Origin: Gemmatimonadota bacterium
Lineage (GTDB): Bacteria > Gemmatimonadota > Gemmatimonadetes > Palauibacterales > Palauibacteraceae
Direction of reading: 5' to 3'
Length of the DNA: 39,035 nt
NCBI GenBank assembly: GCA_022825725.1
Contig: JAJDWE010000054.1
Span: 1-39,035, forward strand
A program made the position numbers and the translations under genes. Under the pieces are notes generated by a model. That model worked only from the letters and a program-made list of their open reading frames with translations, was not told the origin of the DNA and ran no database searches. Below are positions 26,612 to 30,419 of the stretch, piece after piece (the stretch's first letter is position 1; each line of letters begins with the position of its first letter).

Positions 26612-28705
26612 ATGCGGTTCACAAAGGCATTGCGGGGGCGGCGGCGGGTGTGGGCGGTCGGGGTGGCGTGGGGCGTCTCGTTCGCCGCGCCCCCGGTCTC
26701 CGCCCAGGAGGAGGGGATCCCGATCGACTACGACGCCGCGATCGCGCAGAGCGGGATCGACGGCAGCTACGGATACCTGAGCGCGCTGGAAGGGTCCGCG
26801 ACGCTCATTCAGGGAGACACCCGGGAGCGCATCCAGCTCGCGGTGAACGAACCCGTCCTCGTCGGCGACCGGATCTTCGTGTCCGACGAATCGCGCATCG
26901 AGATTCTGCTCGCCGACGGCAACCTCGTTCGGGTCGGGGACCGGGCGGAACTTTCCTTCCGCGCGCTCGCCAACTCGGCGGATTCGAGCGACCCCGCCTC
27001 CATCCTCGAACTCGTGCGCGGGTCGCTGCAACTCGTCGTGGCTGCGAACCCGACGGAAGCCGAACGGCCCTCCGTCGTCACGCCGAACGCGACGGTCCGG
27101 CCGCGGGGAGCGGGTTCCTTCCTGATCCTCGTCGACGAAGGGGGCCGCAGCGAGGTCGTCGTGCGCGAGGGGCTGGCGGACGTCAGGACAGAGACGGAAC
27201 TCGCCGAGGTGCGGCGGGGCGAGAGCCTCTTCGTCGAGGGGGCGCGGGGCGACCGGCTCCGCTTCGCCGCGGCCCCGGGTCTCCAGCGTCTGGAGGCGTG
27301 GGGCCGGGGGCTCGCCGACCAGGCGGGCGGCGCGTACGCCGCTCACGTGGACCCGGATCTCCACTACGCCGCGTCTTCGCTCGGAGGGCACGGGTCGTGG
27401 GTGCAGGTGGACGCGGGCGTCGCCTGGCGTCCGCGCGTGTCCACGGGCTGGGCGCCGTACCGGCACGGGCGCTGGCGAAACACGCCCAGCGGCATGTTCT
27501 GGGTCTCCTACGAACCGTGGGGCTGGGTGCCCTACCACTACGGGTACTGGGACCTCGATCCCAACTGGGGCTGGATCTGGTTCCCCGGCAGCCGCTTCGC
27601 CGTGGCGCACGTCTACTGGTACTGGGGCCCGAGCTACGCGGGCTGGATTCCCTCGGGATACTACTGGCGCCACTACCGGAACTATTACGGGAGCAGTTGG
27701 GGCTTCCACTTCGGGGTCTACGGGCACATCGGCGGCGGCTTCGGGCGGTACCGGCACTGGACCTTCCTGCCCCACGGTCGCCTGGGACATCGGCGACAGC
27801 ACTTCTACTCGGTGGGCGGTTCGGACTTCGGCCGCGGGCGGAAGGCGGTCGAGCGCGGCGTGCTGCTGACGGACTCCCGCCTGCTCGGACGGCAGGCTCA
27901 GCGGCGACCCGCGCAGACGCTGGCGAGCCTGCGGCGCGCGGTCGAGCGCGACGGGAGAACGGCGGTCGATGCGAACGGCTTCATCGATCGCCGCGCGGGC
28001 CTGCCGCGCGAGGTCGAACGCGTCGTGCTGCGGAGCCGCGATGGCCGGTCGGCCCGCCCGCGCGACGCGACCGCCGGAGTGCGGAGCGACCCCTCGCGGA
28101 CGGCGGGGGCACCACCGGTCCGCGTCACCTCGCGGTCGGCGGAGGGCCGCGCCCTGCGGCTGGAGCGGCCCGGCGTGCAGCGGGCGACCCCCCCGCCATC
28201 GACGAACGACGCCCGTTCGACGGTCCGGCGGCCCGTGACGCGGGACGTCGCAGGCTCCGCGAGACGGCCTGTGGTACGGCCGACGACGCGGTCGGGATCC
28301 AGCGGCGTGCAGCGAGCGACGACCCGGGAGCAGCCGGCCGTTCGCCGGACGGGAGGCGCGACGACCCGGCCGACCGTGCGGTCGAATCCGGTGAGGCCGA
28401 CGGCACGGTCGAACCCGACGAGACCGACCGTGCGGCGCGCTCCGGCGCGGCCGACCGTACGACCGCCGACGGCGAGGCCGTCCCGGCCGGTCGTTCGCCC
28501 CGCACCGTCCACGAGGCGACCCGTGGCCCGCCAGTCCGTCCCGCGGCCGTCCCGGCCGGCGGTGCGGCCCGCCGGCCCGTCGAGGTCGAGCGGGAGCGTC
28601 GGACGTTCCAGCGGAGGGTCCAGATCCGGGGGCGCGGTCCGCCGCAGCGGCGGCAGTACGCGGTCGAGCGGCGCCGCGCGGGCCCGCGGCCGATCCGGAG
28701 GCTAG
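26612..28705 (+). CDS. FecR-domain protein with aromatic repeats and a basic low-complexity tail
   Basis: A 697-residue exported protein with a signal peptide ending at VSAQ. Residues about 55-200 form a FecR-like domain (GSATLIQGDTRERIQLAVNEPVLVGDRI, then VVREGLADVRTE). Residues about 250-380 repeat W-x-P-Y/H motifs (GWAPYRHGRWRN, PWGWVPYHYGYWD, PNWGWIWFPGSR) as in DUF6600-type proteins. The last 220 residues are an Arg/Pro/Ser/Thr tail with many RPxVR and RPTARS units, probably disordered and strongly basic. The role is unknown; similar proteins occur in Gemmatimonadota and Acidobacteriota and may bind envelope polymers. Its stop is ten bases from the stop of the convergent AhpD-like gene. 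Confidence 0.85.
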   Translation: MRFTKALRGRRRVWAVGVAWGVSFAAPPVSAQEEGIPIDYDAAIAQSGIDGSYGYLSALEGSATLIQGDTRERIQLAVNEPVLVGDRIFVSDESRIEILLADGNLVRVGDRAELSFRALANSADSSDPASILELVRGSLQLVVAANPTEAERPSVVTPNATVRPRGAGSFLILVDEGGRSEVVVREGLADVRTETELAEVRRGESLFVEGARGDRLRFAAAPGLQRLEAWGRGLADQAGGAYAAHVDPDLHYAASSLGGHGSWVQVDAGVAWRPRVSTGWAPYRHGRWRNTPSGMFWVSYEPWGWVPYHYGYWDLDPNWGWIWFPGSRFAVAHVYWYWGPSYAGWIPSGYYWRHYRNYYGSSWGFHFGVYGHIGGGFGRYRHWTFLPHGRLGHRRQHFYSVGGSDFGRGRKAVERGVLLTDSRLLGRQAQRRPAQTLASLRRAVERDGRTAVDANGFIDRRAGLPREVERVVLRSRDGRSARPRDATAGVRSDPSRTAGAPPVRVTSRSAEGRALRLERPGVQRATPPPSTNDARSTVRRPVTRDVAGSARRPVVRPTTRSGSSGVQRATTREQPAVRRTGGATTRPTVRSNPVRPTARSNPTRPTVRRAPARPTVRPPTARPSRPVVRPAPSTRRPVARQSVPRPSRPAVRPAGPSRSSGSVGRSSGGSRSGGAVRRSGGSTRSSGAARARGRSGG

Positions 28706-28715
28706 CGGACTACCA

Positions 28716-29285
28716 TCAGAGGTCGGGCCACACCTCCGGATCCCGCTCCATTTCGGGCTCCGGTTCGACGCCGAGGGCCTCGATCATGCGCACGTAGTAG
28801 TTGAAGAAGCCGACGACCTCGGTCGCGGTCAGGATCTGCGCGTCCGTCCAGCCGACCTCCCGCAACTCGTCGATGTCCCGCCGGGCGGTGGAGGTCGGCT
28901 CGCGCGTGATCGACACGGCATAGTCCATGAGCCGGCGCGTCTTCTCGTCGAGTCCCGCCGTCCGGTAGTCGGTGCGGATCGCGCGGGCCAGTTCATCGTC
29001 TCCGGTGGCCTCACGGAGATCCTCTCCGTGCGCCTCCGTTCAGTAGAAGCACTCGAGTTCGCGCGAGGTCACGGTCGCGAGCATCTCCCGCACGTCCCGC
29101 CCCAGCGGTCCCGGCGCGAGCATCAGCGCCTCGTAGAGCCGGATCGAGGCGCGCATGACGGGCGGGTTCAGGCTCTGGATTCCGATCACGTTGAAGACGC
29201 GCCCCGCGCGGCGGACGGCCTTCTCGTACTCGCGGGCGAGGAGCCCCTCCGCTTCGTCGGGAGCTACCGTCTCGATGTGCGGCAT
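28716..29285 (-). CDS. AhpD/carboxymuconolactone decarboxylase-like selenoprotein (in-frame TGA as selenocysteine)
   Basis: Reads as one 189-residue peroxidase-related (AhpD-like) protein if the TGA at 29042-29040 is decoded. Upstream it has EYEKAVRRAGRVFNVIGIQSLNP and MLATVTSRELECFY. Downstream, in the same frame, TEAHGEDLREATGDDELARA and the C-terminal helices DAQILTATEVVGFFNYYVRM continue the fold with no other stop. The TGA takes residue 82, precisely the second cysteine of the family CxxCxxxH motif, giving C79-F-Y-U82-x3-H86. A hairpin of the bacterial SECIS type follows. Its family reduces peroxides or thiols through the redox pair; selenocysteine would make it more reactive. It is 12 bases after the hydroxyproline dehydratase gene. 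Pseudogene is the alternative, but less likely. Confidence 0.85.
29007..29034 (-). promoter_or_regulatory. Bacterial SECIS-type hairpin after the in-frame TGA
   Basis: On the mRNA, CACGGAGA (29030-29023) pairs perfectly with UCUCCGUG (29019-29012), leaving the loop GGA. The loop begins 17 nt after the UGA, inside the 16-37 nt window known for bacterial SECIS elements, and has the GG that SelB needs. GGC (29034-29032) can pair with GCC (29009-29007) to extend the stem past a small internal loop. The whole element is inside the coding frame, as in bacteria. Confidence 0.8.
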
Positions 29286-29297
29286 TTCGCCTCCTCC

Positions 29298-30326
29298 CTA
29301 GCGGACGAGGAAGCCGTCCCGCCACGGGTCGTCCGGATCGATGAGGAACTCGTGACGGCCCGTCACCCAGGCCCGGCCCCCGACCTCGGGCACGACCGCC
29401 GGATGCCCGCCGACGGCCGTCGTGTCGACGATCCGGCCGCTGAACCGGCCTCCGATGATGCTCTCCACGACGATCTCCGCGCCCCCGGGGATTTCGTCCC
29501 GGGCGCGAAGGATGGCCAGGCGGCCGCTCACCGCGGTCCCGGTCGGACTGCGGTCGAGTTCCCCGTCGGCGAAGATGCAGACGTGCCGCGAGTGGTGCGC
29601 GGGATCCGCGGCCCTGCCGGTGAACACGGTGCCGTAGAGGAACCCGAGGTCGGGGTCGTCGGGGTGGGAGATGTCGTCTCCCGCCGAGGAGGACACCGCG
29701 CGCGTGATCCGGCGCCCGGCGTCGATCAGGTCGGTGGCGGAGCCGGGCACGAGGGCGAGCCCTAGCGCATCCGCATCGACGTACGCGTAGAAGGCGCCAC
29801 CAAAGGCGAGGTCGTAGGACACGGTCCCCAGCCCCTCCACCTCCACGGCCTGCCCCAGCAGCGGCGCGAAGGAAGGCACGTTGAGGAACCGGACCTCCCC
29901 GACCCGTTCGCCGTCCAGGATCGCGGTGGCGCGCACGAGGCCGGCGGGCGTGTCGATCGTCACCGGCCGCTCGTCCCCTGCCCCGTCGATCCAGCCGGCT
30001 TCGACCGCGATCTTCGCCACGCCGATGATCCCGTGGCCGCACATCGTGGAGTAGCCCTCGTTGTGCAGGAAGAGGACGGAGAAGTCCGAGCCGGACCTCA
30101 CCGGCGGCATCACGAGACAGCCGTACATGTCGGCGTGCCCCCGGGGCTCCCACATCAGGGCGCGGCGGAGTTCGTCATGCTCCGCCCGCGCGACGCGCCG
30201 CCGCGCGAGGACGGTGTCTCCCCGCAACTCCGGGAAGCCCGCCACGATGACGCGCAGCGGCTCCCCCTCCGTGTGCGCATCGATCGTCTCGACGCGAACC
30301 CAATGCTCGGGAGCAGTCCAGGTCAT
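29298..30326 (-). CDS. trans-3-hydroxy-L-proline dehydratase (proline racemase superfamily)
   Basis: Proline racemase-fold enzyme of 342 residues from the ATG at 30326, which follows GAGGAGTTAC. The first catalytic cysteine is Cys96 in STMCGHGIIG. At the second catalytic position the motif is DRSPTGTAVS with Thr262 where racemases and 4-hydroxyproline epimerases have Cys. That Cys/Thr pair is typical of trans-3-hydroxy-L-proline dehydratase, which yields pyrroline-2-carboxylate. IDAHTEGEPLRV is the usual family opening. This would let the cell degrade collagen-like or hydroxylated proline, in line with the peptide-using genes nearby. The AhpD-like selenoprotein gene follows 12 bases later, almost certainly in one transcript. 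Confidence 0.92.
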   Translation of the reverse strand: MTWTAPEHWVRVETIDAHTEGEPLRVIVAGFPELRGDTVLARRRVARAEHDELRRALMWEPRGHADMYGCLVMPPVRSGSDFSVLFLHNEGYSTMCGHGIIGVAKIAVEAGWIDGAGDERPVTIDTPAGLVRATAILDGERVGEVRFLNVPSFAPLLGQAVEVEGLGTVSYDLAFGGAFYAYVDADALGLALVPGSATDLIDAGRRITRAVSSSAGDDISHPDDPDLGFLYGTVFTGRAADPAHHSRHVCIFADGELDRSPTGTAVSGRLAILRARDEIPGGAEIVVESIIGGRFSGRIVDTTAVGGHPAVVPEVGGRAWVTGRHEFLIDPDDPWRDGFLVR

Positions 30327-30419
30327 GTAACTCCTCGGTGGGACGGTGGCCGGTGGTGGCGGCATCATCGTATGCTGGCGCCGGTCATTCTACGCCGTGT
30401 CGCCGCTCGAGGAGAAGGC

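Follow-up and report, generated by a model that had tools for sequence, protein, structure and literature searches.

A conserved in-frame TGA predicted to encode selenocysteine in an AhpD-like gene of a Candidatus Palauibacter relative

AhpD-like selenoproteins with a CxxU motif have been described since 2005, according to the part of PMC1088965 available to us. In the accessible portions of two metagenome surveys, CxxU occurs in AhpD-like and CMD proteins from the Sargasso Sea (PMC1088965) and in the AhpD-like 1 and AhpD-like 2 proteins of the GOS data (PMC2398784). A 2026 catalogue lists TIGR01926 as a CxxU selenoprotein family, with MCB9421940.1 as its example (PMC13188914, Table 1). The legend to Fig. 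2A of the same source sets the limits of its bacterial SECIS (bSECIS) model: a loop of 3-9 nt, a stem of 4-16 bp, a G among the first two loop nucleotides, a spacing of 16-37 nt, and an energy of -7.5 or lower. The preliminary description of the gene considered here held that AhpD-like selenoproteins are known as a class, and the available parts of PMC1088965 and PMC13188914 agree. The terms "Palauibacter" and "selenoprotein" were not found together in the literature searched. Nor was a report of this gene found in the literature on TIGR01926 and on Palauibacter, gemmatimonad, or sponge-symbiont selenoproteins, which was covered incompletely for gemmatimonads and seen in part.

The gene lies at positions 28716..29285 on the minus strand of a 39,035-nucleotide stretch of DNA, hereafter called the window. 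Its frame comprises 190 codons with a single internal stop, a TGA at codon 82 (29040..29042, minus strand); 107 sense codons and a terminal TGA stop (28718-28716) follow, and the predicted product has 189 residues. Translation and orthologue alignment place the internal TGA at the second position of the CxxU motif, within an active-site motif that reads C79-F-Y-U82-T-E-A-H86 (CxxUxxxH). The codons of Cys79, the presumed partner (resolving) cysteine (29049..29051), and of His86 (29028..29030), both on the minus strand, are invariant in the 10-sequence alignment A1. Retranslation reproduced the coordinates, codon count, and motif given earlier. It had also been claimed that routine annotation would split or drop the gene; an 81-aa ORF is indeed all that a plain table-11 ORF list gives for this frame, which bears the claim out to the extent of that list. 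We infer the insertion of selenocysteine (Sec) at codon 82 from features that can be read in the sequence itself, namely the frame, the conserved TGA, a hairpin, the machinery genes, and family membership. Taken together, they make it almost certain that the UGA at codon 82 would be decoded as Sec in an AhpD-like thiol/selenol oxidoreductase of 189 residues.

When U is taken as Cys, the predicted product reaches 128.8 bits against TIGR01926 (AhpD-like, peroxidase-related enzyme), over the curated cut-off of 81.8, and 41.3 bits against PF02627 (cut-off 23). Membership in NF041238 (AhpD_rel_CFYUT, alkylhydroperoxidase-related (seleno)protein), whose model has 357 positions versus the 189 residues of this protein, was rejected on a partial match of 45.5 bits against a cut-off of 175, despite the CFYUT common to both. 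An AlphaFold2 model built from 10 sequences, with Sec entered as Cys, reached a mean pLDDT of 80.7 and a pTM of 0.81; the modelled protein is of the all-helical AhpD-type fold and carries the CxxUxxxH active site. The best chains retrieved by Foldseek were 6k40, 2pfx, 2prr, 3c1l, and 2oyo (E 4e-9 to 5e-8, TM approx. 0.75). The debrominase Bmp8 was matched at TM 0.71-0.74 (0.73-0.74 for 6ohj and 6ohi, at E of approx. 6e-5) and 13-14% identity, and Sestrin2 was also matched, more weakly by E-value.

The AhpD-like protein is matched in 30 of the 35 genomes of the family set. The closest named relatives (L051-L058; 89-94% identical) are metagenome-assembled genomes whose records bear the titles Candidatus Palauibacter, Gemmatimonadales bacterium, or Gemmatimonadetes bacterium, and together with the same-genus genomes they point to the Candidatus Palauibacter genus as the source of the window. 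Within this genus (17 genomes, the window's own included), an orthologue is present in 14 genomes, again counting the window's own. The TGA at codon 82 is kept in all 14 orthologues, none of which has another in-frame stop, and all have 189 residues except one of 190. Of the three remaining genomes, one (G029) yielded no match, and the other two (G033, G034) have only a more distant copy, also with a TGA. For the 78 pairs formed by 13 close orthologues, dN/dS (ratio of means) comes to 0.148 on the 5' side of the TGA and 0.160 on the 3' side. Since these values are nearly equal, the part of the gene 3' of the TGA is most likely translated and useful. In the single-contig genome G010, only residues 81-177 were matched (L049) and the hairpin shows a mismatch, so this copy may be decaying.

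Of the 17 genus genomes, 16 are listed with a second AhpD-like match. In the window's own genome, it is a further AhpD-like gene with a TGA (G000:C10:16393-16866; L063), which has the motif CRYUIVHH, its own SECIS-like hairpin, and a TIGR01926 score of 107.5 bits, over the cut-off.

The preliminary description placed the TGA exactly at the second cysteine of the family motif CxxCxxxH and proposed that homologues be aligned at residue 82, where Cys or TGA would be expected. Of 395 Gemmatimonadota genomes searched, 180 gave a match with an E-value of 1e-12 or below. By hand count, the best 150 rows comprise 139 with a TGA (two of them with two TGA codons) and 11, from 10 genomes, with none. Among the TGA rows, 38 were read (L021-L024, L026-L034, L036-L041, L066-L082, L097, and L098), and in all 38 the TGA occupies the place of the second cysteine. 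All 13 TGA-free homologues that were read (L083-L095, that is, the 11 rows of the phylum search and two from the family search) have Cys at this place. Thus, every homologue read has either TGA or Cys there, as had been expected. A second TGA occurs in L098, at residue 21 of the match, and in L096 and L097, at the extreme end of the match, where it is probably an ordinary stop. The selB score exceeds its cut-off in all 16 Sec-form genomes tested (from the 17 that bear loci L066-L082) versus only one of the 10 Cys-form genomes tested, namely G354, at 249 bits versus 242. Such an exchange of Sec and Cys tracking selB inside a single phylum (26 genomes tested) should be useful for following the gain and loss of selenium use.

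One branch of these homologues (L044-L047, L099-L107), referred to here as GAPU, has the motif (G/D)GA(P/A)U, in which Gly stands in place of the first Cys of CxxU and the UGA is retained. At E 1e-40 the branch comprises 10 rows in 9 of the 395 genomes, two of them from G016; all have the TGA and the motif, and eight have a 7-bp stem with a 3-nt loop. Stems in this branch are of the GGCGGCG type. The AhpD-type rows in the accessible part of the PMC13188914 table have CxxU (one fusion also UxxG), not GxxU. Outside Gemmatimonadota, a distant homologue with 33% identity (L059; VBFR01000222.1, a record titled Chloroflexi) has a TGA at the corresponding codon, in the motif CHYULSSH.

Downstream of the TGA, a bacterial SECIS hairpin is predicted at 29013..29029 (minus strand). 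It begins 10 nt past the TGA and consists of a conserved 7-bp core stem, extended in the window to 8 bp by one extra outer pair, and a GGA loop located 17 nt from the UGA. The folding energy of the 45 nt from the UGA onward is -23.3 kcal/mol (z -5.0), a stability that none of 200 shuffles attained. However, in the GC-rich window a stable hairpin is nothing unusual: among 7,800 segments 42 nt long, 1.1% are as stable, and 5.8% of 650 TGA trinucleotides on both strands precede a stem at least as long, a loose criterion. Because of this window-wide control, stability as stand-alone evidence was dropped as weak. An Rfam search of the window at gathering thresholds gave no match. The hairpin nevertheless stands above chance because the TGA is conserved in all 14 genus orthologues and the longest run free of synonymous change coincides with the hairpin (codons 85-91), seven codons versus two for the next longest. 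When the most distant sequence (L034) is left out, this run is still the longest among the 13 close sequences, the next being five. Across the 14 sequences, 109 codons are degenerate and invariant in amino acid, 30 of which show no synonymous change; codons 86-91 are unchanged at six of six (hypergeometric p = 0.0003 for 14 sequences, 0.004 for the 13 close ones). Synonymous redraws folded as stably in 6 of 5000 cases for the window and in 4 of 5000 for L034.

Hairpins of this type (type 1; 22 sequences, 10 distinct) are paired in 70 of 70 cells, and one pair is changed on both sides, from A-U to C-G, in 4 of 10 rows. In a shuffle test, only 2 of 500 shuffles attained the covariation score and the percentage paired, whereas 458 of 500 attained the number of pairs altered on both sides; covariation support for the hairpin is modest. 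More distant members have a differently placed type 2 hairpin (GACCTC, a 6-nt loop, GAGGTC; 24 nt from the UGA; 22 sequences, 15 distinct), in which 98.9% of 90 cells are paired and no pair is changed on both sides, so that nothing beyond pairing was found. The earlier claim that a SECIS-like hairpin follows the TGA is borne out by the synonymous conservation of its codons and by the fit of the hairpin to the bSECIS limits as given in the part of PMC13188914 cited above.

The window's own genome is 97.7% complete, and the complete machinery for Sec insertion was found in it over curated cut-offs, in answer to the genome search for selA, selB, selC, and selD that had been proposed as a check. 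SelC is represented by a tRNA-Sec of 79.4 bits (cut-off 47), called by ARAGORN as tRNA-SeC with anticodon tca. The selB gene (368 bits versus 242) is located approx. 5 kb from the AhpD-like gene on the same contig, and selA and selD score 502 bits versus 268 and 372 bits versus 125, respectively. The selD gene (L018, G000:C2:15298-16224) has an in-frame TGA of its own, in the motif HGAGUACKL, which we take to be the usual Sec/Cys site of selenoprotein SelDs; SelD is likely itself a selenoprotein. Across the family, tRNA-Sec scores over the cut-off in 33 of 35 genomes; the other two, G022 and G009, have none over it although their AhpD-like genes have the TGA, perhaps through assembly gaps. The preliminary description had named two findings that would speak against it, a genome lacking selB and tRNA-Sec, and random stops or decay in close relatives. 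Neither was encountered: both genes score over their cut-offs, and the genus orthologues keep the TGA and have no other stop.

Could the TGA be a random nonsense mutation that inactivated the gene at codon 82? The 81-aa ORF and the damaged appearance of the distant relative L049 would fit such a pseudogene. The same TGA is, however, shared by all 14 genus orthologues, which have no other in-frame stop, and by 139 of the best 150 phylum rows, and purifying selection is about equal on either side of it. The conservation of the TGA and the dN/dS values refute this explanation, whose probability is practically nil, and uphold the early judgement that a random mutation was unlikely. Near-cognate read-through happens in bacteria, and the frame is open across the UGA; by this route, or by a reassigned code, the codon might be read as Trp, Cys, or Gly without selenium. 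Genome-wide reassignment was nonetheless rejected in view of the TGA codons that end the AhpD-like gene itself and selD as ordinary stops. The full Sec machinery together with a fitting SECIS, and the presence of Cys at the site in genomes of which nine in 10 have no selB over the cut-off, also run against a reading without selenium, making it highly improbable. A further alternative accepts Sec insertion but envisages a mixed output: since UGA decoding competes with termination, low selenium could release an 81-residue fragment, with a role of its own or one in regulating expression, beside the full-length selenoprotein. According to the model, though, this fragment would be devoid of Sec82, His86, and the helices past residue 81, and a functional short product seems quite unlikely. 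Decoding of codon 82 as Sec in a full-length protein is therefore retained as the preferred reading.

If so, SelD would supply selenophosphate, SelA would charge tRNA-Sec, and SelB would deliver it to the UGA given the hairpin with its loop 17 nt downstream. In the protein, Sec82 would most likely be the residue that attacks a peroxide or similar oxidant. Cys79 would then resolve Sec82 via a selenenylsulfide, which a cellular thiol reductant would reopen. The reaction is most likely that of a thiol/selenol peroxidase or reductase, with a peroxide as the presumed substrate.

Upstream of the AhpD-like gene, across a 12-nt gap (29286..29297, minus strand) that contains the Shine-Dalgarno-like GGAGGAGG before the ATG, is a co-directional gene of the proline racemase family (29298..30368, minus strand; PF05544, 357 bits). 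Its two catalytic sites read MCGHG and SPTGT, and a Cys/Thr active-site pair is presumably the mark of trans-3-hydroxy-L-proline dehydratase. The product is perhaps such an enzyme, to judge from these motifs; its score against the corresponding model NF045511 is 368 bits, under the cut-off of 540. The racemase-family gene is directly upstream in all 13 close orthologue loci (L021-L033), with a wider gap in most, and no racemase match was found in the 1.5-kb upstream flank of the more distant orthologue L034. The convergent gene downstream (26612..28705, plus strand; FecR and DUF6600 domain matches) is found on that side in L021-L034 and probably does not belong to the unit.

A shared role of the AhpD-like protein and the hydroxyproline-dehydratase-like enzyme is a guess. 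The full-length selenoprotein might have a main substrate other than a peroxide, acting for example as a reductive dehalogenase or as the partner of that enzyme. The constant racemase-family neighbour in the 13 close loci and the fold shared with the debrominase Bmp8 (6ohj, 6ohi) lend this some weight; set against it are the names of the best relatives (peroxidase-related or AhpD proteins), the identity to Bmp8 of just 13-14%, and the flank of L034. Such a substrate is possible but less likely than the peroxide or similar oxidant favoured above. If the organism lives in sponges, the racemase-family gene could serve host collagen breakdown. A broader and doubtful proposal would hold that the TIGR01926 proteins of Gemmatimonadota are mainly selenoenzymes, with Sec mostly where selB survives and with lineages whose SECIS is differently placed. 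The GAPU branch would then work on selenium alone without a partner Cys, and one copy in the window's genus would have joined a hydroxyproline dehydratase in a two-gene unit, possibly against a reactive product of host collagen or halogenated sponge compounds.

A complete and comparatively supported Sec system, together with an AhpD-like selenoprotein, can now be placed in the Candidatus Palauibacter genus; the protein is otherwise of the expected type, in a class already established. Among known structures, the Deinococcus AhpD-like proteins 2oyo and 6k40 share the fold at 33-34% identity in the structural match, and in 2oyo the second motif position, where the window protein would have Sec, is occupied by Cys. 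The GOS and Sargasso Sea AhpD-like proteins, likened here by their descriptions in the accessible text, are marine bacterial proteins of COG2128 or PF02627 that carry CxxU, with a bacterial SECIS; they come from metagenome surveys, whereas for the window gene, again compared by description, the genome with its sel genes is available along with orthologues from across the genus. The TIGR01926 selenoproteins of PMC13188914, as far as that source was available, share with the window gene the NCBIfam family and the placement of Sec in CxxU. At the family level of this partial comparison, the window gene differs only in host and context, namely a Candidatus Palauibacter relative and a hydroxyproline-dehydratase-like neighbour, and on the sequence evidence it appears to be a very well supported addition to the AhpD-like CxxU selenoproteins.
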